This document shows, one piece after another, positions 2,313-64,000 of a stretch of 64,000 nt of DNA. The notes below the pieces were generated by a model. It saw only the letters and a list, made by a program, of their open reading frames with translations. It had not been told where the DNA came from and did not search any database. This DNA comes from Halichondria panicea (taxonomy: Eukaryota; Porifera; Demospongiae; Suberitida; Halichondriidae). The DNA is taken from positions 6,449,378 to 6,513,377 of the forward strand of contig NC_087381.1 in assembly GCF_963675165.1 (NCBI RefSeq), in the 5' to 3' direction. Both the position numbers and the translations under genes were made by a program. Each line of letters opens with the position of its first letter. Positions within the stretch are counted from its first letter, which is position 1.

Positions 2313-2396
2313 AATCAATATTAATTTTGAGGCACAATAGTGTTACAGTTATCGGCTTGTTTTCACACTGTTAACCAACTTTACATCCTTTTAAAG

Positions 2397-31798: not shown

Positions 31799-31892
31799 AT
31801 GGCTAGCTCCAACAATTTGTGTTGCTTGTTCCTATTGTCTGTCCTCCTTCATATATCACTTGGAGCTGGTGATGATCCCACCATGGATGTCA
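31799..31892 (+). CDS. Secretory leader exon, copy A
   Basis: ATG followed by MASSNNLCCLFLLSVLLHIS and LGAGDDPTMDV, then a GTAAGT donor. It is a clear signal peptide (hydrophobic LFLLSVLLHISLGA, small residues before the likely cleavage site). It ends in phase 1, matching the phase 1 acceptor of the IgGFc-type exon at 34186, so it is the best candidate first exon of the giant receptor. Immediately downstream (about 31960-32030) is a decayed sushi-exon remnant. Confidence 0.75.
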
Positions 31893-34800
31893 GTAAGTGG
31901 TGTTGCATGTGCACGTGCATGCTTTTCTATGATAATATAACCAGTGCTTGTACACACTAAAGTTGGATTTGAGACTCGAGTGTGTTTAGACTCAGGGAGA
32001 TGTGCGTGTGAGTGTGCTTACATATGTAGGTTCTGAGAAAGTTAATAATTGCATGTTTGCATTTTTATGCATCTGTGAGTGTAATGAAACTATATAATAA
32101 CGCATGTTTGTGTTTAATCAAACAATTGTTTGCGATGTGCTATTATAGCCGATCGTTGTTCATGCTTTCCATCACAGCACAGTATTATACAATGTGTGCA
32201 TAATTATATGTTCCGTTATAAGTAGGCCCTGATAAATTATGCTTTTTTTCACCCATTATTCTATTAATTCTTGAAAAATGTGCCTATTTATTCTCCTAAA
32301 AATCCGATTATTCTCTGATTAAAGAAAATAAGTTAAGACGTATATATAAACACAACACACATGCAACTGATTCTGTATTTCTCGCTGACTCAGTTGAAAT
32401 ATTCCGACACTCAAAATTAAGTCTTCCTAAAAGAAGGGCAGCTGATTCATAGACACCTTTAGCCTTTTTCCCATGAGAACATCCTTATCAAAACTTAATG
32501 TAATGATCTTTACCAAAAATGGACATTGATGCCCAATTATTCTTGAGACACCTATTATGCTAAAATATTCCGAGCATAATTTATCAGGGCCTAGTTATAA
32601 GCTCGTGTTGCCCAATCTTTTACTGCCTTAAGATGACATGATTACGTTCGCAAGTATTAATTTCTGCTATTTCTGCGAATGAGAGTAAAATCGCAAAAAT
32701 GTGTACTCGCAGATTATTGGAAATTGCAATGAATCTCATTAAAATCACTTGCAAGTAATTAGAATCACAACTTGCAAGAATTAAAATATGTCGCCTTAAG
32801 GTATATTAGATCCCATTCGAGTGTATTTAGCAGGGAACTATAAGCTATAGTACCGGTACTATAGATTGCTCTGGGCTACAAACTACGATATTATACACTG
32901 ATTGTATTGTCATTTACAAAAAGAAAATTATTGTAGCTATACTTTGTCTAGTAACATAATAACAGAACTAGAATGGAAGAGAGAAGCTCTAGAGTATTTT
33001 TTGGCTTTGTTTGAGAGTAGTATATAGGAGCCGCTCGTTTCTTGGGCAGTGTGCTGTACTTTTTTTGCTGCAAGGCTGCATGGGGGAGGAGCTGGATGTA
33101 TGGAAGTGCTGGGGTTCTAGCTTTGGCTTCTTCCTTTGGCTTTGTTCAAGAGTAGTATAGAGCCGCTCGTTTGCTGGGCTTGTTTGCTGCAAATTCTTGC
33201 TTAGATGTCTTCCTTTCGCTTTGTGAGAGTATAGTACGAGCCGCTTGTTTCTTGGAAAGTGTTGTTTGCTGCAAAACTGGTGGAGGAGCTGGATGTTTCC
33301 GTTTTGTGGGTGGAGCTAGGTCCAGGACTATAATTTATAAACTGAGGTGGAGGAACATGGTTGACTATTTAGTAATGTGACAGCTCAAGGCATGTTCTAT
33401 GGTGTTGCTTTTAACAGGGGATCTATACTTATAATCAACACTGAAGAAGAAGAAGCTGACAACCTGGAGTAACAATTATGAGCCTATTGGTTTGGCTGAT
33501 GAGGATAGTGGACAATGTGATGTCAAAAATAAAAACAATAACACAATAACAACGAACCATTATCTGTGTCAACCAAGCAGTTGATCGAAGTTGTATATGT
33601 AAGGCTATTATAGATCTATGAGTAAAGTAAAGTTAGTGAGTAAAGTAAAGTTCAACCATTCCTAGTGAAGATTCTGTCGAGTTTAGACTATGGCTAGCTC
33701 ACAAAGTTTGTGTTGCATGTTCCTATTGTCTGTCCTCCTTCATATATCACTTGGAGCTAGTGATGAATTGATCCCACCCTGGATAGCAGTAAGTGCAATG
33801 GTCTTGTATCAGCTGTATCTATATAATAGTTAGACACTTTTTTGGAGGTGTCAGTCTATATGGGATTTAGAAGTCCAAAGGCACTGATTTAGGTACTACA
33901 AGTGGCTGAAGGCTTCTAATCACATATATATAGAAACTGACAAAACAGTGTCTAGATGCTATGCGCATGCGCAAACCTTGCCTCCGAGGCTTGGCTACAT
34001 GCAATTACTTGACAACGGAATACTAGGTGTACTAAGTAAATAGGTATACTAGTATACCTGCTCTGAGGCACTTTTTTCTTGATCTTATCAACTATGGTCT
34101 AAACGTATATTAATTTGAGTGAATATTACAGAATAAGGTTTCAGGTAATGATTCATAACTGCTAGAAAATTCAAAACCCCTGCAGATCCTACTGCTCCGA
34201 ACACCAGAGGAAGCAGATTTGCTCTTGCCTTCATGCAGAATCACGCGCGAACTGCAGGAACTACTGAACAGCAAATTGGTCTTTTCATTACCACTCAACA
34301 GGAGAGCTCACGTTTCACCCTAGAGACACGATGGCCAGGAGTGAATGGAACAGGATTCACTGAGACCTCTCCTGGATCTGGGCTGTGGTCTCGCACGGAA
34401 ATCGCTCGACAAGGAGATTTCACTTTTATTAATCTGCTGGCAGGAAGAGGTGGCCAACAAGACATAGCCGTGCAAAACAATGGAGAAACCGATGAAGCTG
34501 AAAGACAAAAGGGACTGTTTATAACAGCAGAAAATGCAAACGATGAGCTCACTATATATGTGCTCAATGATGAATTGATCTCCATTGATGCGTACATGGC
34601 TATCAACTGTGTCGAGTTTCCAGGTGCGACAGATTACAAGTACTTCATCTTTTCATCTGATGTATTCGGTGGAGAACGATTTGAGAGTCGATTTCTCTTT
34701 ACTCCTTGTCAAGATGACACTACTGTCAGTGTACAAGCCTCCCAAACTCAAACCCATCCCGCATGGGTGCTACCGAGTTCTGGCAACCCAAGTGCTCGAG

Positions 34801-37800
34801 TCGAAGCAACTTATGGGAGGGCTTTCAATCGTTTTGACACTGTGATGATTAGCAATCTTGACGATCTTACCGGCTCTATCATCACTTCTGACAAGCCATT
34901 GGCTGTATTTTCTGGACATCAATGTGGAACTCCTACTGATGATGGAACTTGCGACTATCTTGTAGAACAATTGCCACCTCATCCAACATATGGTGACCTG
35001 TTTTTCATGGCTCCCTTTGCTGTCAGACAAAGCGGTGAACTGTACAGAATTGGCTCCCTTGGGGCTGGAGCACAAGTAACAATCAATTGTGAGTGTTTAC
35101 CAAGTTCAGCTGATGGGAATAATCGAGTTGGACTGGTTAGCGCTGGAAATGGTGTTTACACGGCCACAGTGGGTGCAGGACAATACGCTGAGTGCCAGAC
35201 ACCTCAGGATTCTCAGACCTATTGTTGTGTTACGTCCTCTCAACCCGTTACCATGGCTGCTTACACACTTGGAAACTTGATTGACAACCTTCAAAACATT
35301 CAGGATCCACCACTTCCTTTTAATCCGATTGGAGATCCATCTCTCGTTTATATACCACCAGTTAACTCTTATTTGAATAGTTATAGTCTCAGTACAGCCA
35401 AAAATTTGACTACTCAGTTTCAGGGATTTATAAGCTACATCTTGCCCACTCGCATCTTTGATAATTCCCCACAAGATCGGCAGAGGTTTCGTGTAAATGG
35501 AGAAACATACATTCCCGACCAATACGAAGCCATCAACTGTTTAGTAGGTGGTTCAAATGAGGTGTGTGCTTACGGAGCTACCAGATTTTTGGGCGTAGGT
35601 AATTTTAACCTTTCTTACGACAACATTGAAGGTGGAGCATTCTGGGGATTTGCATACGGCTACGCTCGAGAGGTTTCATTTGCTTATCCTTTGCCTTTTG
35701 AAATGGAGCCAGTTGGATGTAAGTTTTCGGAAAATTCTTGTCATTATACGTTAACATTACATTTTTCTCTTTGTTTATGTAGTGGCCTGGATTCGAGCAG
35801 TGGATCGAGTTGTACTGGAAACTGTTGGAACGGTTGATCTCATGTTTAGTATCACCCGTGGTGATCAGTCAGGGCGTAGTAGAGCATTTGCTGACACTCA
35901 AGACCTCTCAGCCATAGCAGGTATTTAGTTCATACCATTACGCAGTAAGTCTTGTTGTATAATTGGTAATCAATGACTTCCATGCAGGTTCTGATTATAA
36001 TGATCCTCAGCCACAAAATAATGGTGGGCCCACTGAAAATGGCAACCTGCGATGGAGAGCTGGCGACACGTTACCTCGTGTTCCATACGTAGTCACTATT
36101 TTGGATGATAACATTCCAGAGCCAGTGGAAGTTGTGGAGGTGATGGTGCTGTGTGTTGCAGGAGAGAACTGCTACCTGCCCAGAACTCGGTACACCATAA
36201 CCATTATTGATGATCAAGGTGAGTGTCACTTCAAGGTGGTGGCTACTACCATAGCAACAAGTTTCTTTGTAGTGGCCCCACATGAAAGCCACTTGTATTG
36301 TTTGGTGGTAATAATGACAGCTGTGGCCATGGGGAGAATGTAATTGTGGGACAATAAGCTTGGCAACCAACAGATGGGCAGTGTTTCATTGAGAACACAA
36401 GCAAGATGGTTGTGGTCATAATTATAATTATATGATCATAGATTATCCTTTGATGTACGATCACTCTAGTTTCCTGGAAACAGCTTATAGTGCATGGAAA
36501 CTAGGCACACATTAGAATACTGGCTACTTGTAATTCCTAGTGACCACACAAGCAGATGGTTGTGGTCAGTGCTACTTTGATGTATCTAGTTTCCTGAAAC
36601 AGTTAGCTTGTAGTGGAAGGCACACACTAGAATGCTGGCTACTAAACATGCAAGTGCATGCATGCATTCAGTTGCTCTCTTCTGTAATTACGTATACTTG
36701 AGTGTGTTTACAGGAAATCATAGCGTTCTGCATGTGTTTGAGCATAACATTGATTGTTGTTAGCCAATGAATATAGTGCATGGATCAATCGTTGTTACAT
36801 TACGGGCCTTGTGTGATAATGATCAAGATTGCTGTATATTGCCCATCCCCTTATTATAGGTGCCTGTCCTGACCTACCTGATTTCTCTGGTGGATCCATC
36901 TCATACGACTTTGAGTTTTTCTCAGAGATTAATGGTCGACCATACGGAACAGTTGCCATGTACATGTGTGATGTTGGAACTATAATGGGAGAACCTACAA
37001 GAACTTGTGAGAATAGAGTGTGGTCAGGAAGTGTACCAAGCTGCGGAGTGACAAGTAAGTAGACCCACTGTCAGTATTTTGGCATCCTATACAAGATCGT
37101 ATGATGACTTTGCTTCCCTGCAGATCCGGTTGTGATTATGTTCAGTAGGGCCACGTTCTCATTCAGTGAGAGTGATGGACAAGGCTTCGTGGAGATAGTG
37201 GCAAACATGGCTCCCACTCAAGACCTTGACTTCATAGTAACCGGAGGTAAGTAGCTCATAGTGTGAATTGTGTCAGTGTACAATTATTATAATGAGCATT
37301 TTCATGCTTTTAAGAGCTATAATTTAAAGCCTCTTGCACATTTATTACTTGATACACTAATCGTTATTGCAGGCCCCAGCACTCAAGACTTTGTGGTTGT
37401 GTCGGCAGCTGGTCTTCCTGGTCGGTTCACACTCTCTGCCGGGCAGACGTCCGTCCGAGTGCCGTTCAACATCAATAACGATGAGGTTGGTCTGGAGGAT
37501 CTGGAGACGTATTTGGCATTTCTCTCTCTCACCTCTGAGGCTATGGCCGCTGGACACTCTTTGGGAGCTCTAACTCAAGCCACTGTGTCAGTCACGGACG
37601 ATGACGGTATATCTATACACTATAAATATATACTTACACATTGTATTTGGACACTCTATGATGTTGTGTATACACTGTGCAATGAAGACTGTGTCATTTT
37701 ATTCTCTTTGCAATCAAATTAATTGTAACGGGAAGACTGGCTATCATCCAGCTACAAACAAATGATTAATTGTTGTTCTAATGGAATGTCAATATGCCCA

Positions 37801-40800
37801 CACAGCTGTCGATGTGAGTGTGGGTCAGACAACATACAGTGTTCAAGAATCTGACGGCTCAGTCACTCTCTCCTATGTACTCAACCGAGAGGCTGTCAGA
37901 GACGTGTCATTTGATGTCATCAACACTGACGGAACAGCCACTGGTGGTGGTATCGGTACGTATGTCTGCAATACTTAGTGATGACCGTTGTTAAGATTAT
38001 AGGGTCAGCGCCAAACTATCTCTGCAGTGCCAAAACTAATTTTCTCGATCCCTTTGTAGATTATGTCTCTGCTGGCTACTCTCTGAACATTCCTGCCGGT
38101 CAAACTGGTGTGACCAGAAGTGTTTCCATAACGATGGACAATCTAGGATTTGAAGGAGCCGAGAACTTTGTCAACAGCATATCCAGCATCAGCACTGATG
38201 GTGTGGGGGCGGGTGAACCTGATGCCACAGTTACCATTCAAGACTCAGATGGTATGTTACTTTCATTTGTAGCTAGGAAGAAATCACGGTCAAAATTGAT
38301 CACAGATTTAATCTATATAAGTATAAGCAAACCACCGTGTAACATAATCTGTAGCTTGGTTTATCTTGAACTCGATTTTATAATATTGATTATCAATTGT
38401 GTTATTTTTTGCAGCTATTCAGATTATGTTTAGCATGGCGATATTCTCGTTTGCTGAGAATGTTGAGGGTGGTCAAGGTTTTGTGGATATCGTGAGCAAC
38501 ATACCAGCTGCACAAAGCTTCACATTCAACGTTAATGGAGGCCCCAGCACTCAAGACTTTGTGGTTGTGTCGGCAGCTGGTCTTCTTGGTCAGGTGACAT
38601 TCCCTGCCGGCCAGACGACTGTTCGAGTGCCGTTTAACATCAATAACGACGAGGTTGGTCTGGAGGATCTGGAGATGTATGTGGCATCTCTCTCCCTTAC
38701 TCCTGAGGCTATTGCTGGTGGAGTATCTCTGGCAGCCATCTCTCAAGCCGATGTGCAAGTGGTGGATGATGACGGTATGTGGAGCTTGTACGTAGTTGCT
38801 AATGGCAACACAACATGCACAGCTGCACGTATACTGAGACTATATGATATTCACACACTGGGATTTGTTGCAATAATTATTGCAGTCACAATTAACATTG
38901 TGCAAGTACTAGCCTATAGCTACTGTCAGTATAATTATTGCTGCAAATGCTCACTCAAATTGCGTTGTCCTATTACTGTGTTATAGCGCTACAATATAAA
39001 TGTGTGGTTATATTATGCAGAGGTCAGTGTGAGTGTGGGTCAGACAACATACAGTGCTCAAGAATCTGACGGCTCAGTCACTCTCTCTTATGTGCTCAAC
39101 CGAGAGGCTGTCAGAGACGTGTCATTTGATGTCATCAACACTGACGGAACAGCCACTGGTGGTGGTATCGGTACGTATGTCTGCAATACTTAGTGATAAC
39201 CGTTGTTAAGATTAGGGTCAGTGCCAAACTAATGTGTTAAATCTCTCCAGTGCCAAAACTATTTTTCTCGTAGATTACGACTCTGCTGGCTACTCTCTGA
39301 ACATTCCAGCCGGTCAAACTAGTGTGTCCAGAACCGTTTCCATAACGATGGATGGCGTAGCAGGAGAGACACCCCCTGAAACCTTCAGTAATTCTATCAG
39401 TTCGATCAACACAGTTAGTGTAGTCGCTGGTCCAGCCGAGGCTACTGTCCAGATCCTGGATTCAGATGGTAAAGATCACTAAAACTATTTTCTTGTAGAA
39501 CTGAATGCATAATTATCGTAAAGCAGATAGTATTCAAAGGTCTAAATGTGGGCTATATATTATACCCAACTGTATGTGGTATATATATACAACCCCACAT
39601 TTTTACAACGTGTTGCACTTCCATAAAATTATAATAATGGTGCTAGATTGGCCTCTTGCATGGTTATAGCTTTGCCTAGCTATAATCCCTTTATTTTGAG
39701 CTAGTGTGCTCGCACTTCAATTAATGTATCTCCTCCCAACCACCAGCACCAGTTACCGTGTCATTCGGAGAAATTGAATACAACTTTGTTGAGAACGAGG
39801 TTACAGGCACTATTCGAGTGGTGACCTCAAGACCCTCTCCTGTTGACTTTTCATTTACTGTTACTGCACGTACGTTGTCATAGCTACTGAGTATATAGAG
39901 TGCAGCACCTAATTTGTGAACAAATTACCACTCTCACACACACACCCACTCACCCACCCACTCACACACCCACTTACCCACCCACTCACATACACACACA
40001 GCTCTCAGTGATACCCAGTTCATAGCCCCATCCGGTGGATCCATTGACGTCACTGCAACCTTCCCAGCCGGTACCAGTTCGTCTGACATCACATTTCCCA
40101 TCAATGACAATAACTTTGCCCTTGAGGCGGTGGAGGAACTAATTGCCACGCTGAGCCTTAACAACGCACCTACTGGAGTGGAATTCGGCACGCCCAGTGT
40201 GACTGTTATCAGGATACAAGATGATGATGGTGAGTGTGATCATGGGTGCATCTGTGTGGGTGTGGGTGAAGACACTCACCGTGTTTCTAATAACATGAGA
40301 GTTAGCGATGGGATAATGGTAAATGTATAAAATGTATGTATTATGGTGCATGCATGATTGGTCTCATTCCCCGTATATGGTTAGCGTCATTAGTTACAGA
40401 GGTATTAATTAACTAACACTGCTATGACACATTTATTGCTTATTTTCTCTGTTTTATACAACTCATTTTTATTGACCTCCCCAGAATTTTCTGTTGGTTT
40501 TGTCAATGACCAAGTGCCTGTTTCTGAAAGTGAAGGTAGTGTTACCCTCAACATTGTGAGCACTCCAGCAGCTCGTCCGGTGGAAATCACCGTTATCACT
40601 CAAGATATTATTGGCGGAGTAAGACCAGCAACGGCTGATGTTGGTAAGATATTTAATACACAGTGAAGTCTGTCTATTTTGGTCACCCTATAATTATATA
40701 AAGTAATTACTCTACATGATAAAATACAGCCAGGTTAATGGACCCTAAAGTCTCCATAGCTGATGATATGTTTGTTTGTACCTGTGTTGGTAGGTCACCT

Positions 40801-43800
40801 CTTAATTTATATTACACCATGCAAGGGTGACCGTCATAGATATGCAGGTTTCAATGTTAACAAGCAAGTATTTTAACACTTGGCTCACTTGGCTTAACAC
40901 TTGGCTACTTAAACTGGTGTAAAAAATTGTTTCTCCTTCAAATGCATGATTTTTCATTGTGCAAGTTTTAACTCCATTGATTGTACCTCATGCAATATTA
41001 TAGCCACTCACAATGCTTTTCCACTGCATACACAGACTACAACGTGACAATGGTGGAGATAACCATCCCAGCATTTGCAACATCCGCTGGCTTCACCGTG
41101 GGGATTATTACCGATGTCGTTGTGGAAGGTGATGAAGTCTTCCGAGCTGTAATAGTTGGAGCTTCAGCTGACGAGGAACCATTGCCCGTTAGTCAGCCCC
41201 AGAGTGAGGTCACCATTGTAGACGATGATAGTGAGTGATGAGTTATTTTAATAGCAACGTTTTTGTTTGTCTGAAACTTTAGCTAGGATTGTTCAATTTC
41301 TGAAGTATGTAAGTATATTCCATAGCTCTCTGAAAGCCCTTCAAACAATATGCTATATATAATGTTCTGCGATGATCCATGACTGCCCACAACTCTAGTT
41401 TGTAACATCCAATTAAAAGAAAGTTTACTGGTAGTTAACGTTTTGGTATTTGCAACTTGCAGTGGTGAGTGTCAGCTTCTCCATGGCAACCTTCTCTTTT
41501 GATGAGGGATCTGGAACTGGCTCTGTAACTATTGTCAAGAATGCTGCAACCAACTTCCCATTTGATATCAGAGTAACTGGAGGTTCGTGTTGTATTTATA
41601 GCCTAGAAATAGTAAATTATATTACATGTACACAGTCACCTGCAGTACGTGTTTATGTACTTACACAGGTCCCAGTACACAGACTGGCATCACGGTGAAT
41701 GCAGGAGGTATTGATAGCACTATCACATTCTCTGCCAATCAGCAAATGATCACAATCGACTTTCCTGTCGGTGATGATGAGTTGGGACTGGAAGTGTTGG
41801 AGCGATACATTGCCAACTTGGAGATCATTGGCTCTCCCAGTGGAGTCGTTACCGGGACGATCACTTCCACTGAGGTGCAAGTGAGAGATAATGATGGTAA
41901 CTAATTGAGTAAAGGACAGTAGCTGTTCACAGCCACTCCCCCACACACGCCCCCACACCACCACCCCCCACACACACACAGAAGTGTCAGTTGGATTCCA
42001 CGTTGAATCAGTGACAGTGGAAGAAAGTGATGGAATGTTCAGAATGTGTGTGCGTCTGAACATATCTGCCGCTGAGAATATCATTGTCTCCTTAGCAATA
42101 CAAGACGGCTCTGCTATAGATGGACAAGGTGTGTGAGAAGTGTCCTTTTTTTTAAGTCAATTAACATAATTATTCCCTCCGCACATGACACCTAATCCCC
42201 CCTCCCCCTCACACACACACACACACACACACAGATTACACCTCCTCGTCTATTCCCTCTGAGCTACTGATAGCAGCTGGTGAGACAGAGGCATGCTTCA
42301 CGGGTGACATCATCGAGGATGGAATACCAGGCGAGGGTACAGAGTCCTTCACCATATTTATCACCGGAGTGGATCAATCTGGAGTAATCATATCTAGAGA
42401 CACAACCCAAGTTATTATACAACACAGCGATGGTAAGTATCTCTGTGCTTCATAAAATAATGTCAAATCAGTATACCCAAGTTAAGTATGTGAGTCAAGT
42501 GACTATAATAATATTGACCCCCAATAGCATTGTTGGTGGGCCTGTTTGTATGTTTGATCCTTTTGAAAGGCCATAATTTTAGTTCTGGTGGACACAATTT
42601 CAATGATTTGTGGTTTTATGAAACGCAGGTCTTTCAGTTGGTATCTCTCTGAAAATATCATGGACGTTTTCCTAAAATGAGTAAAGAGCTTCTTTTAATC
42701 TTTCAGAAAACCACAAAATCGTTTATTGAAACACAAGTTGGTTCATGCAGCTTTATTCTCCCACAGCACAATGCCTTCCTCTGCCAGAGATAGCCAATGG
42801 AATGATCTCTTATCTTCCTGATAACACTTCTAATTATGACGTCGGAACTACGGCCAGCTACGTTTGTGAAGATGGATTCTTTCTCAGTGGAGACATAACT
42901 AGAGATTGTCAATCTGACGGAATATTCTCTGGTATGGAACCTGTTTGCTCTATGATTTGTGAGTGGACCATCTTTATTACATTCATAGTATCTAAAAAAC
43001 TGATACCTTTCCAGCTATGTGTGCTGACTTGCTTGCTATTGCTAATGGAGACATTGCTTACAGTTCTACTAACATGCCACGGCCGATAGGCACTGTTGCC
43101 TCATACACTTGTAATGATGGCTTTAACATTGCCGGCCCAGTGAGCAGAACTTGTGTGGAGAACGCTGGCTCAGGAATGTTCGATATGACAGCTCCAACTT
43201 GTATTCGTAAGTTTATCAATCTCTGAACTAATCTACTCTTGCAACATTTTTATGTGTCTTGTAAAATGCACTAACTTCTACAGCTGGTTGTAAAGCGGAG
43301 ATATACCAGAGTCATTCTTGGCCCAACACGGCACTAGGGTCTACTGCACTGTCCCCTTGTCCATGTGTTGAGGTATTGGGTGTGTTCGCAGGGAATGTCA
43401 GCAGACAGTGCTCTGGGTCAATCAGTGAGGGAGGTATGTGGAAGGATGAGCTTGACCTCAGCAGCTGTGAGACTACACTTTCAGACATATCCCGGGAATT
43501 GTGTGAGATTACACTAGTGAGTGGTTTGAGGAAGTTAAAAATAATATACCTGTTAGAAAACTGCATGACTAAAACATTGCTTATTTAATTAATTCTATAA
43601 TTATAGCCAACCAACCAAAATGTTGTCTTTTAGTTACCATATAGCGGGTTATTTTCGTATTTCATATTATTATAACTAAGCCGCAATGGATTCAACGTCA
43701 CAGCTATCCTGAGCTGTACGAATATTTAAAATACGAATGGACAGTTCATACGAACGTTTGCACCAACGAAATTTACCTGCTATACGGTAGTTAGAGCTAG

Positions 43801-46800
43801 CTGAATTCCTCATTCATTTTGCTGTACTGAAATGAATCACTTTTCCCTTTACTAGGGACTCTCATCAAATATGACAACTCAAGTGTCCAATCAGATTGCC
43901 AACATTACATCCAAACCTCAAAATCTGACTGCAAGTCAAATCACCTTGGTTACTGCAATAGTAGAGCAAGTAGCAGAAAAAGCTGCTGTCAACCAAGAGG
44001 TGAACATTGTTACTTGCCAATGAGTTATGACTCTTTCACATATTCAGGTGAGGGATAACTATCTTCAAACAATCGACAATATTCAGCAAGCCGATGTTGA
44101 CGTCATCTATGAGAGCCAGCTGGCAATGAATTCATCAACAAGGTATGTTGCAAGTAATATACTATTATGGGTTGTTTATTCATGTAAGCCTTACAAAAGG
44201 TGCTGACTCCCGCTATGTATTTTATGACAGTCCTTCTCTTATCCAATTTTTTGGCTGTTTTCCCTTCCCTGTATGTATAATTATGTGTTAAGTTGAAACC
44301 CATTATTAGTTAGAAATTATTATGCTGTCATCTTTGCCAGAATATGTTTACGCTGATAATATTATTTACCCTCTCGGCATAGGATTCTTGCAAGCCTCGA
44401 AACATTTCTGGACAATCTCAATACTTCAACTGTTTCCACAAACTCCACAAGCAATCAGACTGTTTTAAGTTTTGAAACATTTGCTATGACAGTGCAAGAT
44501 TTAGACCCTGACAGTTTCCAGGGCCAGACATTCGTTGTTGATTTAGGCCCTGTCGAAGAGGCAATGAACAATACTGGCGTTATCGACCAAGATGCTCTGA
44601 TGACAGCTAATGATTACATGACTAATAACAGATCTGAGATTGATTCCCTTAGTGAAGACACCGAAAACTCAACAGCCTCTCTACGTTTAAGCCCTTTGAT
44701 TCTTGAAGAATGCCCTACAACAAATCTTTCACTTCGGCAGAGACTAAGTTACTCTGTTTTCTTGTCTGATGTGCTTTTCCTTCCTGAGAACAGAAGTACT
44801 AATCAGGTGGGATCTATTGTGGTGGCTGCAAGACTAGCTTGTCTGCAGACCAACAAGACAGTGCTCACAGTACCAGTACGGACAAGCTTTCTGATCAGAA
44901 TGACGGTATAATTATGAACAAATTAACAGTAAATTAATTTGTCTGCAGGATAATATCGAAAACAGTAGCTGTGCTGTGTATAAGACTCAAGGTAAGTGCC
45001 CTCACATTAAGCAGTAACACGCTTAATTCACAGTATTATTATTTGAAAAAAAACTTTACAGCTTTAATAGTTTTATACTTATAACAAAGTCTTAATTTCT
45101 AATGCCGGCTATTTCAGATCAGTTTGGAGCTTGGGACACTGCTGGATGTAGAGAGATAACCAGTTCCAATGGGAGAAAAGATTGCGAGTGCAGACAATTG
45201 GGCCACTTTGGAATACTCTTTGTAAGTTTAATGACTGTCTATATTACTATACTGATTTATCCTCATGATTACAGGATTTAAATCCAATGTCATTACCTGA
45301 AAATCTTGCAATTGCTTTGAGCACCATCACATACATTGGCCTGGGCTTGTCTGTAATATGTCTTCTGGTGTTTATATTCACCATTTTTATCAGCAAGTAA
45401 GTAGCAACCTGCCCAGTTTGTTCGACGTTTTTCTATTCTATTCCGTAGGAAGCTCCTCGCTGATAAGCAGAATCAAATCCTCATCAACATGAGTATTTCA
45501 CTGATATGCCTGTACGTCACCTTCTTCATTGGAGGGTTCACTGTTGGTGTCCCACCTCTTTGTGGGGTCATGTCTGCCCTCCTGCAATATTTCTTTTTAG
45601 TGTTCTTCTCCTGGGCGGCTGTAGAAGCTGTCTGGCTCTACCTCAAACTGGTAGTGGTAATGGGATCTCAGTCCCTCACCTCCAAGTTCATGCTGAAGGC
45701 TGGACTTCCAGCTTGGTGTAAGCAATCGCTAATGTTGGCATGAGGGATCGCTTGGGTACTCATGAGTTGATAGTGCATTCAGTTTTGTTGATGTGCTTCT
45801 TGTCTGTATAATTATAGTTAGAGTGCTTAATTACTCCACATGCAGTACTACCCTTTATGATTGTTGTCATCAGTGTGGGGGCGGGACACCAGTACTACAG
45901 CAACCCATATTAGTAAGTACTTGGAAATCTTATAATTTTTTAATTTTTCACAATGTAGCGGGTATAATCAATTTGAGGGTATAAATTTGCAGAAACACCG
46001 TTAGAAAGAATTTCGCGTTATTTTTAGTGAAGAAAAAAGGTGAAAGTTTATACCCATGAAATACACCTGCTATACTACGGTAAATCAGCCTGATGACGAT
46101 GCTACAGCATGCACACTTAATATAATACTGAATTCGGATGCTAAGTTCTGCATGCATGTGTAGTTCAAGTCATGCACCCTCATATAACATGCATGTGGCA
46201 TGTATATACGGTATTACGCCAGACCCTCGGCCCATTGATCACATAATTATATACACATCATTATTCATTCAGCTGTCGTCCTACTGAATGGCCTTTCTAT
46301 TTTGGATTCATTCTTCCTTTTGTCATTATCTACGTATTCAACTGGATCGTGTTTGTTGCCATCATGGTGTCCATTTGCAAGCATTTTAGAAACCTGCAGT
46401 CACTAAACGAGAGCTCCGTATGTCAACAGTTGAGGAATGTTAAGAAGAACTTGGTCATTGCAATGTGCCTATCGGTTGTACTTGGCCTGGGTTGGGGCTT
46501 TGGACTAGTATCAACAAGCTCTGGTCTTGTGGAGCTGTCATTCACATTCCAAGTGATATTCTCGATCTTTGTAGGCTCTCAAGGTGTGCTAATTTTTATT
46601 ATATATGGTCTTCGAAGCACTGAATTCCGCCAGACATGGATAAAACTCTTTAGTAGCTGTCGATCAAATACTGATAACTTTGTGTCTTCTGAGAAAGGAA
46701 GCACTAATCCACGAGATAATTCTAGCACTGTCGGAGTGGAGTTATCGAGCGTGAACACATTATCAAGCAAGCAGTGTTCTCCACGCAATGAAGAAAAGAA

Positions 46801-46804
46801 CTAA
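31799..46804 (+). CDS. Giant adhesion-type GPCR: IgGFc-binding - 9 Calx-beta - 3 sushi - HRM - GAIN/GPS - 7TM
   Basis: Exons: leader (31799-31892, or copy B 33690-33788), 34186-35718, 35783-35920, 35988-36218, 36860-37054, 37124-37246, 37373-37606, 37806-37955, 38060-38251, 38415-38774, 39021-39170, 39274-39468, 39747-39869, 40002-40229, 40485-40643, 41036-41230, 41463-41582, 41669-41896, 41982-42128, 42235-42432, 42767-42958, 43015-43206, 43284-43516, 43856-43999, 44048-44142, 44383-44905, 44949-44991, 45118-45221, 45275-45396, 45449-45717, 45846-45912, 46273-46804. Reading phase closes at every junction after copy A. The product is about 2,500 aa. Calx-beta arrays bind calcium and mediate adhesion in other proteins (ADGRV1, aggregation factors). 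The GAIN/7TM half places it among adhesion GPCRs. It is likely a Ca-dependent surface adhesion receptor; the ligand is unknown. AATAAA follows the stop. Confidence 0.9.
31960..32110 (+). pseudogene. Relic of a sushi exon and its intron
   Basis: The sequence GGATTTGAGACTCGAGTGTG and TAGACTCAGGGAGATG, then TAGGTTCTGAGAAA and TTAATAATTGCATGTTTG, matches the 3' half of the sushi exon at 4770-4952 and its intron (GGATCTGAGATTCGAACGTG, GGGAGATGG, TAGGTTCTGAGAAATTAAA). It keeps no complete domain. A parallel, shorter relic follows the third leader copy at about 59050-59115. Confidence 0.65.
33690..33788 (+). CDS. Secretory leader exon, copy B (phase-incompatible with next exon)
   Basis: ATG MASSQSLCCMFLLSVLLHIS, then LGASDELIPPWIA and GTAAGT. 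Relative to copies A and C it has a net 5-bp gain in the last third (GATGAATTGATCCCACCCTGG), so it ends in phase 0. The next exon at 34186 needs phase 1. It may therefore be unused, be spliced to an unseen intermediate exon, or carry an assembly error. It is the leader copy closest to the receptor body. Confidence 0.6.
33830..33955. mobile_element. Diverged MITE, TTAGACACTGTTT family
   Basis: The ends TTAGACAC and CAGTGTCTAG, with an interior like that of the 24304-24436 element (GATTTAGAAGTCCAAAGGC.., GGCTTCTAATCACAT), mark a degraded copy between leader copy B and the IgGFc-type exon. Confidence 0.65.
34186..35718 (+). CDS. IgGFc-binding-protein-type N-terminal exon of the giant receptor
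   Basis: One 1,533-nt exon (511 codons) reads without interruption. It contains SDKPLAVFSGHQC and CDYLVEQLPPHPTYG followed by a YRIGSL segment, the pattern of the IgGFc_binding domain known from FCGBP and many invertebrate secreted proteins. Paired cysteines and many Asn-x-Ser/Thr-type sites fit an extracellular location. It begins after CCCCTGCAG with NPTAPNTRGSRFALAFM and ends GAT|GTAAGT in phase 1, the phase used by all following ectodomain exons. Confidence 0.88.
35783..42432 (+). CDS. Calx-beta array of the giant receptor (nine modules, one sushi)
   Basis: Nine Calx-beta modules, usually two phase 1-1 exons each (strands A-D, then E-G ending in the acidic D/E-D-D/S-D-G turn, e.g. TDDDG, QDSDG, QDDDG). 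Modules: 35783+35988, 37124+37373, 37806+38060, 38415 (single exon), 39021+39274, 39747+40002, 40485+41036, 41463+41669, 41982+42235. A sushi exon (36860-37054) interrupts after module 1. Modules 2/4 and 3/5 are near-identical pairs (GQTTYS.QESDGSVTLSYVL in 3/5; STQDFVVVSAAGL in 2/4), showing a recent two-module duplication. The acidic loops are the expected Ca-binding sites. Confidence 0.9.
36395..36655 (+). repeat. Intronic tandem duplication of ~150 bp
   Basis: Two consecutive copies share AAGCAGATGGTTGTGGTCA, TTTGATGTA, CTAGTTTCCTG.AAACAG, GGCACACA.TAGAAT.CTGGCTACT. They lie between Calx-beta module 1 and the sushi exon and do not include an exon. Confidence 0.7.
39910..40001 (+). repeat. 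CA/CCCA-rich microsatellite forming a splice acceptor
   Basis: A run of CACACACCCACTCACCCAC-type units ends in ACACACACAG, the acceptor of exon 40002. Comparable CA tracts serve as acceptors at 41960-41981, 42210-42234, 62890-62930 and 63545-63566, and on the minus strand before 10809 and 11467. Confidence 0.8.
42767..45221 (+). CDS. Sushi x2, HRM, GAIN and GPS exons of the giant receptor
   Basis: Two sushi exons (42767-42958, 43015-43206) are followed by an HRM-like exon (43284-43516; GCKAEIYQSHSWPNTALGST, then R.C..SISEGGMW, D..SC). Helical GAIN exons (43856-43999, 44048-44142, 44383-44905) are rich in potential N-glycosylation sites. The GPS is split over 44949-44991 and 45118-45221: SSCAVYK, FGAWDTAGC, then CECRQLGHFGILF. 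The Cys/Trp framework is intact. At the usual cleavage triplet (H-L-T/S) this protein reads Q-L-G, so autoproteolysis is not expected. Confidence 0.88.
43638..43787. mobile_element. Short MITE (CATATAGCGGGT family) in receptor intron
   Basis: The left end CCATATAGCGGGTTATTTTCG and the right end CGAAATTTACCTGCTATACGG are inverted. It is located between the HRM exon and the first GAIN exon. It belongs to the same family as 12590-12784. Confidence 0.75.
45275..46804 (+). CDS. Seven-transmembrane (adhesion/secretin-type) region of the giant receptor
   Basis: Exons 45275-45396 (TM1), 45449-45717 (TM2-TM3), 45846-45912 (TM4) and 46273-46804 (TM5-TM7 and tail). Family B features are present: ISLICLYVTFF in TM2, a Cys in the loop before TM3, FSWAAVEAVWLYLKLV in TM3, LGWGFGLV in TM6, and FQVIFSIFVGSQGVLIFIIY in TM7. 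The short cytoplasmic tail is Ser/Thr-rich and ends RNEEKN before TAA. The donor at 45717 was chosen (GGT|GTAAGC) because it keeps phase with TM4. Confidence 0.92.
45955..46077. mobile_element. Short MITE (TAGCGGGTA family) between TM4 and TM5 exons
   Basis: The ends GTAGCGGGTATAA and TTATACCC.. CACCTGCTATAC are imperfect inverted repeats around an interior with GAATTTCGCG. It is a diverged member of the 12590-12784 family. Confidence 0.6.
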
Positions 46805-50090: not shown

Positions 50091-50760
50091 AATCCTACGT
50101 TACGGTAGCAACTTTTACATTGCAAATACCCCCCCCCCCCGGATACTATGTATAATTCACATCAACAACCCCCCCTGCAGTCAGTGAGGAATGTTAAGAA
50201 GAACTTGGTCATTGCAATGTGCCTATCGGTTGTACTTGGCCTGGGTTGGGGCTTTGGACTAGTATCAACAAGCTCTGGTCTTGTGGAGCTGTCATTCACA
50301 TTCCAAGTGATATTCTCGATCTTTGTACGCTCTCAAGGTGTGCTAATTTTTATTATATATGGTCTTCGAAGCACTGAATTCCGCCAGACATGGATAAAAC
50401 TCTTTAGTAGCTGTCGATCAAATACTGATAACTTTGTGTCTTCTGAGAAAGGAAGCACTAATCCACGAGATAATTCTAGCACTGTCGGAGTGGAGTTATC
50501 GAGCGTGAACACATTATCAAGCAAGCAGTGTTCTCCACGCAATGAAGAAAAGAACTAACTTGTATAATAAAAGAAACAAGATAAATACCTGAGTTTGTAT
50601 ACAATGAGAAAGAGAATCACAACAAATACCAGAATTCCTGATAAGAATTTTTGGTGCTTCCCCTAGCCAATCCTACGTTAGCAACTTTTACATTGCAAAT
50701 ACCCCCCCCCCCGGATACTATGTATAATTCACATCAACAACCCCCCCTGCAGTCAGTGAC
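50019..50760 (+). repeat. 157-bp direct repeat flanking a copied GPCR 3' end
   Basis: Bases 50019-50178 and 50604-50760 are nearly the same sequence (CAATGAGAAAGAGAATCACA .. CCCCCCTGCAGTCAGTGA), including a C-run of variable length. Between them sits a copy of the receptor's last exon. The second repeat lacks ACGGTA near 50104. Confidence 0.88.
50179..50603 (+). pseudogene. Near-identical partial copy of the giant receptor's last exon
   Basis: From RNVKKNLVIAMCLSVVLGLG through RNEEKN, TAA and AATAAA, this repeats about 46433-46860 with only two or three base differences seen (e.g. Gly to Arg at GTAGGCTCT/GTACGCTCT). The upstream part of the exon (TM5 and earlier) is absent, so it cannot encode a receptor. 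Near-identity means very recent copying or conversion. Confidence 0.9.
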
Positions 50761-58878: not shown

Positions 58879-58972
58879 ATGGCTAGCTCACAAAATTTGT
58901 GTTGCTTTTTCCTATTGTCTGTCCTCCTTCATATATCGCTTGGAGCTGGTGATGACCCCACCATGGATAGCA
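58879..58972 (+). CDS. Secretory leader exon, copy C
   Basis: MASSQNLCCFFLLSVLLHIS, then LGAGDDPTMDS and a GTAAGT donor in phase 1. It is nearly identical to copies A and B. Phase 1 fits the sushi exon at 60968, so it is the likely first exon of the second receptor. A sushi-exon relic follows at about 59050-59115 (GGATTTGAGACTCAGGGAGA, TGGTCTGGCCTGATTGTGTG). Confidence 0.75.
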
Positions 58973-61900
58973 GTAAGTGCATGGTATTGTGCATGCTTTT
59001 CTATTAGCTGATAATAATAATTATTATAGCCAGTGCTTGTACACACTAAAGTTGGATTTGAGACTCAGGGAGATGGTCTGGCCTGATTGTGTGCTTAATT
59101 ATGTAGGTTCTGGAAAGTAAATAATTGCGCGGGATCCTCCTTGCCTCTCTTGCTCAGCACCTACCTACCATTTTTTCTAGATCCACCACTGGTTATATAG
59201 CCGATCGTTGTTCATGCTTTCCGTATAATACAATGTATGTATAATTATATGCAATATCTTTTGGGTACAATAATATTACTACCGTGGAATCGCGGATCCC
59301 TCTGTTGTAGCGGACAACATGCCTTGTACCAACTGCTTTTACTATCTAACTATATAGTGTATACTTGCAACCCCGAATCGGACATCTCTAAACTCCAGAC
59401 AACGGACGTTGCCTTTGCATGAAAGATGCATTTAGTGCAAGAATTAACCTCCGAATTAAGAATTAACAGACGAAGGGTGTCAAAAAGAATGGCATCCCCT
59501 ATATACCTGCATGCTGCTCCACAGTATATAGTGTGAGTTCTCGAGATAAATGGCAGTAATTTGGACCCCATGCCATGCAGTTGTTGGGGATGTGTTGCTG
59601 CTTGAAAAAGAAATTAGTAGACCATGCAGGTCTGCAGTTCCATTGTTGGTTTTATGCTCCTAAAATATTCACACACACGCAAGAGGACTGCTGTGACTGA
59701 CTATTAGCTATACGTCATTCTTGTCATGTGTGCATGCATGCACAGTTCAGATTCAGTCTGCTCCAAGTACAACCATCTTCAGGACATTCTGCACAGGGTT
59801 TCCAAACGACTACAACCTGGATTACAAAGCGCTTCTTCAGATTTGCGATTGCTTCCACGAGGCAGATGACCTCTCAGTCTCTATTTCTCTTACCAAGACA
59901 ATTCCGCCATCTTTAATGACTCTGTTGTTGCAAATAATAGATAGGCGTGGCTAAGAAACCGTGCACCTAAAACGATCAGTGCTGTGCTTTTCCAGCCTGA
60001 GCCTGAGCCAGAGATGTTGCTTTTCTTCACACTGTTCAGCTCTCTAGCTCTCTTTCTCTGACAGGCATGCGATATGCACTGGCTAGATATCATGCTCTTA
60101 AAATGGCTGTCATTTAACACAAATTAAACATATCAAGCAATATTACTATTAATTATTAGTCCAGAGATATTCGAGAAGATATCTGATTAGTCCTGTCTTC
60201 TCTTCTTGAACTTCTGTACTGCCTCTTGACGTTCCACTTATGCATGCATGCATGTCATGATACGTAAATTTATACTTCTGTACTGAAAAAGAAAGGGAAT
60301 CCGACTAGAAAAACATTTGCAATGTGAAAAATTGCTAGGATTGGCCAGGGAACCTGTGCAAGATATCTTAGCCCTTTGATGAGCAAGCTTTGATTCACTG
60401 CCACAGCAGCCTCTCTTATTGGCGCCAATCTCGCGCGCAATGTATCCCTAAATAATGATAATGATTACATCACCGTAACGCGCCTGAATTCAACCACGCC
60501 CATCGTTTCCAATCCCTTTCTCTTCCTTCATCTGTGATAAGACTACATTATTGCAATGTTTCATCAGTTTATATGTAACCATCCAAAAGATATAATCACA
60601 TATACAAGAAATCCACAATAAATCCCAATAATTAATTGAGCCATCCTTATTAACAACACTGAGTAGAACCTCGCTGAGGTTGTACTACGAAGATCTTGTA
60701 GCCATTATATCAAACGGTCACTTTTTTCGACTGTACTGCACAAAGCGTACCTCAAGGCAAGATATTAAAATACCATATGAAAGAGCAGCTCAATGCGCAT
60801 GTGCTGGTATACCTACAGCGTGCGCATAGCTCCAACACAGTGTCCACAACGATTTTTTGAACATTATCACTACCGCTGCCGTCATATGACGGCTAAAGCC
60901 GGGAAAGGGTTAATAGAATTGTGTTTGCACCTTATAATTGGTTCATGCAGCTTTATTCTCCCCACAGCACAATGCCCCCCTCTGCCAGAGATAGCCAATG
61001 GAGTGATCTCCTACTCTCCTGATATCACTCCTGATTATGATGTCGGAACTATGGCCATTTACCTTTGTGAAAATGGATTCGTCCTCAGTGGAGACGACAC
61101 TAGAGATTGTCAATCTGACGGAACATTCTCTGGCATGGAACCTGTTTGCTCTATGACTCGTGAGTGGACCATTTCTTATTACTATTATATTCATGGTATA
61201 TTCCTTTCCAGCAAGATATTGTCAAACTATTGTTTATTAAAAGTGTATCAGTTATTAGTGCATGTATAATATAATTATGACTGAGGTACATAGTATGTTT
61301 GTACATGTATTACATGTACGTGCTAGCAGTGAGTGTGCCCAGAATTGTTGAAGTGGTGGCTGGCCTTTTTTCATATAATTATAGCCTGTAACATGGTAAC
61401 TAGGCCTAAGAGGTGGTTATTTTTGGTTACACCCAACCATGCACCACCGACTAGTGTGGCTCATCCCTGGGTGTATTATTATTAGGTTAAATTAATTTTT
61501 CTATGAGCAAGAGCATGCTTGAAAGTGTCATGTGACTTTGTGACTTTCCAGCAGCTATCATTGTTGGATTGGCTCTCAGTGTTCCTCGTAGAGACAAGAA
61601 AAGTTACTGGTGAACCCTATTACCATCATCCAGCAAGCGCTATAGAAACTGAACAGCCATAGCTAATTATTATGCAGCTACAGCTTTAGACTACATTGCA
61701 TCATCTGTAATTGTAATTGACTAAAAACAGTAGATTACATGGTTATTACAGGAAGCCCACTTATTATACAGGAAGTGGACGCGTATTTTCTACAGGAAGT
61801 GACCAATAATTTGAGGAAGTTATCAAAAAATGGAATGAAATTTTAGTGAAAGTGACACCTCCACTCCACCATCATTCTTCTTATTGTAGTGTTGCAGTCA

Positions 61901-63960
61901 GTTATAGCCTAGAATCTATTAGTACTTGTCTGTTCTTTCCAGTAGCTTCAAGAAACGTTTCACAAACTCTACTAAGTTTTACTGTCATCTTTCATTTCGT
62001 CTTTTTGTCAACTGCATGGTGTCTCTCACAGTCCTCCAGCTCGCACGAATTCAGTTGCTAACGCATTCAAACCTGGCCTTTTGTAACCACGCCCCGTGCC
62101 TGTGCAATGAAGTCCAAGTTAGATAGACCACACCTAAGAGTAGAATATGCGTCTTAGTAACCACCTTGGATACGGTTAGTTCCCTCGACTTCGCCTCGGG
62201 CTAACCGCAACTGAGCCCGCAAGCTTATGAAATTATGGCTCATAATTCCCAAACATACACAAATGGGATTTAATCATTTTACAGTCCTCTCTCCGTTAAT
62301 TCTCGTAGGTATTCAAGTTGTATTTGAGATTCCTGAAAGGACTGAGCTGGAGACTGCCGGGGATGTGGAGGTGTGTGTAGTGGTTGTTGAGGGCGTTCTC
62401 GCTAGAGAGGTCATCGTCACTGTTGCCAGTAGAGACGGGTCCGCCTTGGGTACGTCCCTATAATGATGTATTACATATCAGTCATTGAAAACAAAATTCA
62501 ATGAAGTGTATTGCTTGCATGTATAACTATCTTCTATTACATACAGCTGGTGAAGACTATGAACAATTCAGCGTTGATTTGTCCTTTGACCCCGATACTA
62601 ACCGCGCCTGTTTCACTGTTACTGTTACTAACGACGATCGCTACGAGTTACCCGAATCATTTGACCTTGTATTGACCTCCAACGATGATTTTGTGATAAT
62701 CGATGTGCCAACCAGCGTCTTCAACATCAACGATGAGGATGGTAAGTATGTGTAATGTTTTATATAGTGAGGCATAGTGGTGACACCAATTATTATAATT
62801 AGGGCCACAACAATTAATGTCCTATAACTATCTATGATAATCACGGCCCCACACTTCTATTAATTTTATGCAGTCACATATACACACCCCATAAACACAC
62901 ACACACACATACACAAACACACACACACAGTGCTCGTGATTGGATTCCCTCAGGAGGTGTATGATGTGACTGAAGACATTGGCGATGCTCCAATAACAGT
63001 GCAAATCATCAGTGGAGAACTGGCTGATGGAGTATCAGTTGATATCTTCTTCTCCAACCAAAATGTGACAGTTTTTGGTAAGAGAAACTACTAGACTATT
63101 ATGCCTCGGTGTGTACATGCACAGTGAGGTAGTATCTGTGTGTGTATCTAGACTGCTACAGCGGCTCAAATAAGAAATGAAGTGCAAGTAAGAGCTACAC
63201 TCCATAGGCTTCTACTTGAAATTCAATTTTTAAAGCATTATTATCCTTCCCGAGTTACTGTATGGCTAGTTTTGCTACTTTGACTTCCATCTGTTGGCTA
63301 TTCTTCTTAGTATTTAGCTCTGGACTAAAACGCTAGCTATTGGTTAGCTGCGAGATCGAAAGACCTGCAAAGCTGCACTGTTTCATGAGAATTCAGCAGC
63401 CATTTAATTATGGACTTTGACAATCTTCTTAGGCATCAATCAGGGTCATTTTCTTGCACATTTGCAGCTAGCTTTCCACGATACCCGCAGTGCTTTTGTT
63501 ATACATGCAAGCAGAGGTTAACGTATTACCCCCCTCCCCTCCCCACACTCATTCACACCCACACAGATGGCTCTGACTACACTGCCGTGACCCGTATCCT
63601 CACCTTCACCTCGACCATCACCAGTATCCCAGTGCCTGTCCGCATTCTGGACGATATGGTGTATGAAGATTTAGAAATATTTTTGGCCACTCTCAATGAA
63701 GCATCATTGGAGCGTATCACTGTGGCTCCTGGAGCTGCTATTGTCAATATTGCTGACGAAGATGGTGAGAGCGACTTCTTACGTTTAGCCATGATTCACA
63801 TTTTTTTCGCTCTTTGCAGTTATCACAATTGGTTTTGTTGAGACTGGTGTCATGGTGAGTGAGGGTGATGGTAACGCTGGTCTCCAGGTGGCAGTCATCT
63901 CCGGTATGCTAGATGCAGAGATCCAGGTGCAAGTCACCACAAGATATGGATCAGCCTCTT
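58879..63960 (+). CDS. Second sushi/Calx-beta receptor (3' end beyond window)
   Basis: Likely exons: leader 58879-58972, sushi 60968-61159, then Calx-beta modules 62309-62449 + 62547-62741, 62931-63077 + 63567-63764, and 63820-63960 (first half of a third). All are phase 1-1 and join in frame. Calx-beta ends are clear: NINDEDG, NIADEDG. The sushi exon is a close copy of 42767-42958 and the leader is a copy of the giant receptor's, so this is most likely a paralogue. Whether it carries GAIN/7TM exons cannot be seen. The leader-to-sushi link is inferred from phase and order only. Confidence 0.78.
59745..60352 (-). repeat. Inverted third copy of part of the composite repeat
   Basis: Reverse complement of about 56400-56980: GGAAACCCTGTGCAGAATGT, the coding-like block, TTTAAGAGCATGATATCTAG, and finally the foldback arm end TCCGACTAGAAAAACATTTG at 60299. 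It breaks off at 60352. Confidence 0.8.
60968..61159 (+). CDS. Sushi exon copied from the giant receptor
   Basis: It reads CPPLPEIANGVISYSPDITP and DYDVGTMAIYLCENGFVLSG, ending DGTFSGMEPVCSM. Together with ~27 bp of upstream intron (TGGTTCATGCAGCTTTATTC) it matches 42740-42958. Substitutions are mainly conservative or synonymous, so the copy appears to be under constraint. Confidence 0.9.
61160..62308. other. Intron of the second receptor, repeats only
   Basis: No exon seen. Short repeated TACAGGAAGT units occur at 61750-61805, and a block related to 16580-16615 appears inverted (CCTAAGAGGTGGTTAT at about 61405). TAGTAACCACCTTGG and nearby text are unremarkable. Confidence 0.5.
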
Positions 63961-64000
63961 GTAAGTTCTACAATAATGTAAAGCTGTAGATAACAATTAC

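Follow-up and report, generated by a model that had tools for sequence, protein, structure and literature searches.

Introduction

Several described proteins share parts of the receptor reported here. The adhesion G protein-coupled receptor (GPCR) ADGRV1 (VLGR1) carries about 35 Calx-beta domains together with LamG and EPTP, the EPTP/LamG module being defining for its subfamily; to our knowledge it has no IgGFc head, sushi module or HRM domain. FCGBP is a secreted protein with VWD, C8 and TIL repeats. We analyzed a stretch of 64,000 nucleotides from the sponge Halichondria panicea (hereafter the window), part of contig C5 (NC_087381.1) in an assembly of 131 Mb and 39 contigs. At positions 31799 to 46804 of the window lies what is probably one large adhesion GPCR gene, in which a constant 3′ core (HRM, GAIN, GPS and the seven-transmembrane domain, 7TM) is preceded by one of several seemingly interchangeable 5′ ectodomains. 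Window positions are C5 positions minus 6449377.

According to the part of PMC12716839 available, adhesion GPCRs combine an HRM/GAIN/7TM module with extensive domain shuffling, and their 7TM phylogeny and ectodomain architecture tend to correspond. The adhesion GPCRs of Amphimedon carry HRM, GPS, SRCR, EGF, Ig and other domains (PMC4302439, accessible text). For Halichondria panicea itself, a figure legend (PMC8242945, Figure 1, legend only) names IgGFc-binding, Calx-beta, Sushi, HormR, GPS, GAIN and 7TM among receptor domains. Demosponge allorecognition has been tied to Calx-beta proteoglycan aggregation factors (PMC10815962, accessible part).

Results

Structure of the receptor gene

The gene was modeled with a splice-aware gene finder that relied on codon usage and scores for GT/AG sites and was run both with paralog conservation and without it; the model was then curated by hand. 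The curated gene is on the forward strand, runs from the ATG at 31799 to a stop codon ending at 46804, and comprises 32 exons encoding 2,502 amino acids. All 31 introns are GT-AG, the phases close, and neither internal stops nor phase errors occur; most exons were also recovered by the automatic gene finder. This bears out the first-pass annotation of the locus, which had joined some thirty exons without a phase error into a product of about 2,500 residues over the same span. The curated model superseded the first automatic ones, in which exons with weak splice sites had been lost or wrongly joined and spurious 5′ exons included. Intron 1 is 2,293 bases long and no later intron exceeds 641 bases. 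Every one of exons 2 to 22 is symmetrical, of phase 1-1, the classic state of shuffled extracellular modules.

The predicted product consists, in order, of a signal peptide, IgGFc_binding, one Calx-beta unit, one sushi module, eight Calx-beta units, two sushi modules, HRM, the GAIN region, GPS and 7TM. Exon 1 (31799..31892, phase 0 to 1) contains the start codon and the signal peptide MASSNNLCCLFLLSVLLHISLGAGDDPTMDV; its counterparts in the paralogs p4273, p6244 and p6204 occupy the corresponding position and are 52-83% identical. As the signal-peptide exon that lies in phase, it was taken as the first exon. Intron 1 holds another copy, outside the product (33690..33788, forward strand), which is out of phase, 99 bases long as against 94, and 81% identical over 26 amino acids. 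This copy was rejected as the first exon, since no in-frame join leads from it to exon 2.

Exon 2 (34186..35718, phase 1-1) encodes the IgGFc_binding domain (PF17517, 121.6 bits, cut-off 25.6) and is present in eight paralogs. It is followed by Calx-beta unit 1 in exons 3 and 4 (35783..36218; E 0.0013, below the cut-off), by sushi 1 in exon 5 (36860..37054; curated model and Pfam), and by Calx-beta units 2 to 9 in exons 6 to 20 (37124..42432), all of phase 1-1. Seven of these eight units are built of two exons and one of a single exon; Calx-beta is the best match throughout, above the cut-off in four. Sushi 2 and 3 occupy exons 21 and 22 (42767..43206; curated model and Pfam). The shared 3′ part begins in phase 1 with the HRM of exon 23 (43284..43516; 33.5 bits, cut-off 26.2) and continues with the GAIN region in exons 24 to 27 (43856..44991). 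Exon 28 (45118..45221) carries the GPS CECRQLGHFGILF (30.0 bits, cut-off 22.5), which is without the cleavage Thr/Ser, and exons 29 to 32 (45275..46804) encode the 7TM (7tm_2, 93.4 bits, cut-off 20.6) and the cytoplasmic tail up to the stop codon. All these exons are on the forward strand.

Run on the 2,502-residue product, Pfam also gave Calx-beta at 194.4 bits (cut-off 27) and Sushi at 74.5 bits (cut-off 20.7, in three stretches), so that all six families named at first pass (IgGFc_binding, Calx-beta, Sushi, HRM, GPS and 7tm_2) exceed their cut-offs. The earlier figure of nine Calx-beta domains is correct as a count of predicted units, five of which are divergent: scanned singly, all nine had Calx-beta as their best match, four above the cut-off, two below it with E < 0.01 and three with E between 0.012 and 0.16. 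The GAIN domain, likewise proposed earlier, is a putative one. The region N-terminal to the GPS aligns with chains of ADGRG6 and ADGRG2 from solved structures, in regions which we take to be their GAIN domain, whereas the Pfam match (GPR128_GAIN_subdomA, 17.9 bits) is under the cut-off of 22 and PF16489 is unlisted. The part from HRM to the tail matched 30 PDB sequences, namely 25 adhesion GPCRs and 5 CRF receptors (E 1e-35 for ADGRL3, 1.1e-35 for ADGRG6). The IgGFc domain had no meaningful relative among PDB sequences (best E 0.0074, galectin-1), and AlphaFold2 run on the IgGFc exon alone gave an unusable model (pLDDT 32).

Paralogs keep the two halves together

By far the best reading of 31799-46804 is that of a single predicted gene, as the first-pass annotation had proposed; it is well supported by two paralogs together with the in-phase model. 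In p6304 (C5:6304k), all 31 exons after the signal-peptide exon are repeated in the same order, with 90.8% DNA identity over 13.7 kb from exon 2 on. The more distant p4273 lies at 4.28 Mb on the minus strand of C5, 2.2 Mb from the window gene, and reads signal peptide, IgGFc, Calx-beta, sushi, four further Calx-beta units, sushi, HRM, GAIN, GPS and 7TM. Because both paralogs keep the exon order, a chance arrangement is excluded.

The strongest evidence comes from p4273. Of the 6,569 intron bases tested in the window gene, only 37 align to this paralog (blastn, E 1e-5), some short introns being bridged by the DNA alignment under laxer scoring. The ratio of nonsynonymous to synonymous divergence (dN/dS) is 0.33 for IgGFc, 0.29 for GAIN plus GPS and 0.27 for 7TM, which indicates purifying selection. 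Since both halves are kept in order under such selection while the introns hardly align, the two halves would belong to one gene. Their synonymous divergence (dS) is 0.451 (0.376-0.546) and 0.326 (0.262-0.387), respectively, with intervals that barely overlap. Front and core also stay joined in p6244.

A common core behind differing ectodomains

The window receptor does not appear to be a one-off: a constant core seems to stand behind differing ectodomains in about a dozen receptors. The exon encoding transmembrane segments 2 and 3 (TM2-3) has 52 matches in the genome, of which 11 on C5 (the window included) are 88-100% identical and one on C7 is 58% identical; two shorter fragments reach 66%, one of them with a stop, and the others 27-45%. 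The 13 matches of the HRM exon fall on the same 12 loci, plus one weak match. For eight further core receptors, the analysis covered the 10 kb that precede HRM (20 kb in one case) and the stretch from GPS to TM2-3.

The ectodomains preceding the core differ widely. The window gene and p6304 have IgGFc, nine Calx-beta units and sushi modules, p4273 has IgGFc, five Calx-beta units and sushi modules, and p6244 has IgGFc and Calx-beta unit 1 followed by a sushi array. Three Calx-beta units and one sushi are found in member 5926, and sushi arrays in 5994 and 7258. A VWA domain with sushi modules precedes the core in 5135, by Pfam (HRM is unlisted by Pfam in this prediction and was seen by tblastn), and in 5555, where only the resemblance of the prediction points to it. 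The C7 member shows Ldl_recept_b and Ig domains by Pfam, its HRM being below the cut-off in the prediction, and the nearly identical pair 5542/5155 has an ectodomain without an assigned class. IgGFc is thus carried by four of the 12 members, not five, because two signal-peptide exons separate the IgGFc match at C5:6015206 from the receptor 5992190, with which distance alone would pair it.

Further traces of the family were noted. In p6244, the HRM and GAIN exons are about 5.8 kb apart, and between them lies coding sequence of collagen-like Gly-X-Y type that includes hydrophobic segments (C5:6254800-6259733). A detached copy of the last 126 amino acids of the 7TM exon, 97.6% identical, lies about 3.4 kb downstream of the window gene (50178-50555). 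At 58879-64000, another family member apparently starts, with a signal-peptide exon 93% identical, a sushi module at 60970 (79%) and Calx-beta matches from 62543 to beyond the end of the window; no IgGFc match was seen there.

Shared fronts and breakpoints in phase-1 introns

The front of the window gene, IgGFc-Calx1-sushi1, recurs without HRM or 7TM, in the bases examined, in p6626, p6446 and p6204. In all three it leads into a transmembrane segment (86% identical to that of p6446 in p6204, 66% in p6626) and then a tail with tyrosines; p6626 has no HRM or 7TM match within 17 kb. Positions 1-7000 of the window contain the 3′ part of p6446, with the transmembrane segment near 6861 and the tyrosine tail, and not a 7TM. 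The same front is also found in p6384. DNA identity between the window gene and p6626, introns included, is 95.6% over 34067-36486 and 88% over 36538-37637. By IgGFc dS, p6626 (0.055, 0.031-0.084) and the full-length paralog p6304 (0.074, 0.046-0.104) are equally close to the window gene; the value for p6446 is 0.107, and p6244 is nearest to p6384 (0.063).

These likenesses end abruptly. Similarity to p6626 stops in the phase-1 intron after Calx-beta unit 2, and similarity to p6446, p6204, p6384 and p6244 in the phase-1 intron just after sushi 1. Core similarity resumes at 43251-43262, that is 22-33 bases before the HRM exon (43284), in p6244, p4273, 5994 and 5926. All introns holding such breakpoints are of phase 1. 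Between the window gene and p6244, dS is 0.357 for IgGFc (bootstrap 0.278-0.438) and 0.121 for the core (0.086-0.160), with intervals apart. For Calx1 plus sushi1, the dN/dS point estimates over 182 codons are near 1 (0.94 against p6304, 0.92 against p6446). Taken together, the shared heads and the breakpoints suggest module exchange.

Loss of the cleavage residue at the GPS

Among adhesion GPCRs, the cleavage triad H-L/F-T/S is common, not universal. The GPS reads CECRQLGHFGILF in all 11 members on C5 and CKCTHLGHFGILL in the C7 member. The Thr/Ser of the triad is replaced by Gly in 12 of 12 members and the His by Gln in 11 of 12, giving QLG in the C5 members and HLG in the C7 member. Since the Thr/Ser is missing at all 12 sites, the receptor is predicted to be uncleaved. 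The segment following the GPS, HFGILFDL, stands opposite HFGVLMDL of ADGRG6 in the alignment. Of the compact IgGFc receptors sampled elsewhere in the genome, one on C1 keeps HFT and one on C4 keeps HLT.

IgGFc upstream of other 7TM loci

A genome-wide search for the IgGFc domain (PF17517) gave 122 matches, which merge into 115 loci. The 7tm_2 loci comprise 150 of 164 matches listed and four from the TM2-3 exon search, 114 after merging; the counts that follow hold among these listed matches. At least 20 of the 114 are preceded by an IgGFc domain on their own strand, no more than 25 kb away; 14 of these pairs lie within 8 kb and 15 outside C5. As controls, IgGFc was also counted downstream on the same strand, where 11 of the 114 have it within 8 kb, as tandem arrays would give, and upstream on the opposite strand, where none does. 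Because IgGFc also occurs downstream, the number of pairs is an estimate from exon-level matches. A compact prediction on C1, one of the 15 pairs outside C5, reads IgGFc-EGF-HRM-GAIN-GPS-7TM, with IgGFc_binding at 194 bits, GAIN, GPS and 7tm_2 above their cut-offs, and HRM and EGF below. Fourteen of the 15 lie outside the list of TM2-3 exon relatives (E 0.001); the fifteenth (C1:4521402/4531954, match at 4529995, 36%) stands there beside many unpaired loci. IgGFc may therefore have come to stand before 7TM domains of more than one lineage.

It had been stated at first pass that no adhesion GPCR was known to add this N-terminal domain and sushi modules to a Calx-beta array. The exact architecture was indeed not met in the literature searched, as far as the sources were available; Figure 1 and the supplements of PMC8242945 lay outside that search, and the domain combination may already be drawn in that figure. 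The available text of PMC4302439, on Amphimedon, holds no word beginning with Calx, IgG or sushi, the legend of its Figure 4 naming HRM and GPS but none of IgGFc, Calx-beta and sushi; FCGBP and IgGFc are not in the accessible text of PMC11452194, nor any of these domains in that of PMC10280926. The pairs above, one of them supported by Pfam on C1, show on the other hand that an IgGFc domain ahead of 7tm_2 is no singularity. The window receptor is a new variant of adhesion GPCR architecture; it is not unique in having IgGFc.

Related modules are also found elsewhere in the genome. Large tandem IgGFc expansions occur at C1:14.6-17.7 Mb and C4:3.6 Mb, some with 7tm_2 3-8 kb further on. A different class of IgGFc genes forms a tandem array at C5:1954000-1963500; its IgGFc is about 25% identical to that of the window, and it also has Calx-beta and sushi, with fibronectin-like stretches seen by eye in one prediction. 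At C2:272025-277757, Calx-beta matches strongly at twelve places (80-84 bits), eleven of which follow one another at a spacing of about 405 bases. A Calx-beta match at C6:2382998 lies within an open frame of 10,065 codons.

Discussion

The probable picture is that of a constant HRM-GAIN-GPS-7TM core that would have acquired its ectodomains in phase-1 introns, through recombination or exon shuffling. The IgGFc head would bind a large secreted, mucin-like or microbial ligand, and the stalk of Calx-beta and sushi modules would hold it away from the cell, possibly with a need for calcium. A calcium-dependent recognition role, put forward at first pass, is plausible for this putative receptor. Force or ligand would then shift the uncleaved GAIN domain so that the tethered agonist-like segment HFGILFDL engages the 7TM bundle, the ectodomain remaining unshed. 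We infer this mode of activation because the cleavage residue is missing and the HFGILFDL segment is kept. Swapped heads would feed a small repertoire of recognition specificities, perhaps with a part in immunity, into one pathway, and the single-pass versions would feed into another. More tentatively, we consider it possible that the exchange is ongoing, an uncleavable core acquiring varied heads through phase-1 introns while IgGFc heads also sit on single-pass tyrosine tails, giving two signaling routes.

Other explanations have to be set against this. That the locus merges two adjoining genes, one for an IgGFc-Calx-sushi protein, either secreted or single-pass, and one for a shorter HRM-GAIN-7TM receptor, is suggested by the nearby genes of the former kind without 7TM (p6626, p6446 and p6204) and by the fact that the joins of the window gene are predicted. 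However, only 77 bases separate sushi 3 from HRM and 339 bases HRM from the GAIN region, the reading frame is continuous through both halves, and these remain together in p6304, p4273 and p6244. Within the receptor gene, the single-pass tail of the relatives has no match, and beyond exon 1 with its decayed duplicate no further signal-peptide exon (E < 0.1) was found. We regard such a merger as very improbable. Exchange of heads between receptor classes would also be superfluous if whole genes had been duplicated and their 3′ core then homogenized by gene conversion. Conversion would yield just what is seen between the window gene and p6244, whose cores are more alike than their heads; it leaves unexplained the near-identical IgGFc front on single-pass genes (p6626 and p6446), as well as the VWA or Ldl_recept_b-Ig domains in predictions that run into the core, and we consider it unlikely.

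The interchangeable ectodomains might, alternatively, serve no recognition at all: in an ADGRV1-like structural, mechanosensory receptor, the Calx-beta array would form a fibrous link. An array of this kind on an adhesion GPCR is in keeping with the idea, and so is the varying length of the stalk, with nine, five or three Calx-beta units among members. Yet the ADGRV1 markers EPTP and LamG are absent from the Pfam list of the window product (E 0.01), and several relatives with this core lack the array or have something else in its place, so that we give this explanation little credence.

Some observations weigh against a single gene with exchangeable heads and should temper it. The splice joins of the window gene are predictions guided by paralogs, and p6304 could be an uncollapsed haplotype and not a paralog. 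In the other members, the linkage of ectodomain and core rests on proximity and predicted splicing; their models are automatic, some fusing or truncating neighbors, and the 10-kb reach upstream may shorten some ectodomains. The GAIN region, below the Pfam cut-off in the window gene, was compared in four of 12 members. The low divergence of the core could reflect its gene conversion, not the swapping of heads. Furthermore, the lipopolysaccharide-responsive genes of Halichondria panicea include no GPCR, according to the accessible part of PMC8242945.

Domain shuffling is credited with shaping adhesion GPCRs, and this family would expose the process among close copies. Because near-identical cores stand behind unrelated ectodomains, and a near-identical front is found on both 7TM and single-pass proteins, shuffling can be studied here at very small distances. 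Ongoing module exchange, if true, would amount to a germline-diversified recognition system in an early-branching animal, and would run against the coupling that tends to be reported between 7TM phylogeny and ectodomain in adhesion GPCRs. Should the family recognize microbes or other individuals, it would represent a repertoire encoded in the germline of a non-model animal. It also supplies naturally occurring adhesion GPCRs in which the cleavage residue is missing and a tethered agonist-like segment is retained.

Among known systems, ADGRV1 resembles the window receptor in placing a Calx-beta array ahead of GAIN-GPS-7TM in an adhesion GPCR; the window receptor differs from it in its nine Calx-beta-like units and its IgGFc, sushi and HRM domains. 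Latrophilin (ADGRL) and ADGRG6 are the best PDB sequence matches of the core, and the segment HFGILFDL is aligned with HFGVLMDL of ADGRG6; however, their GPS reads HLT and HFT in the alignments where the window gene has QLG, and the ectodomains differ. FCGBP shares the N-terminal IgGFc_binding domain, whereas the Pfam list of the window product contains none of VWD, C8 or TIL and has 7TM instead. Like the sponge aggregation factors, finally, the window receptor would display extracellular Calx-beta domains, but on a product with a predicted 7TM core, unlike those secreted Calx-beta proteoglycans.

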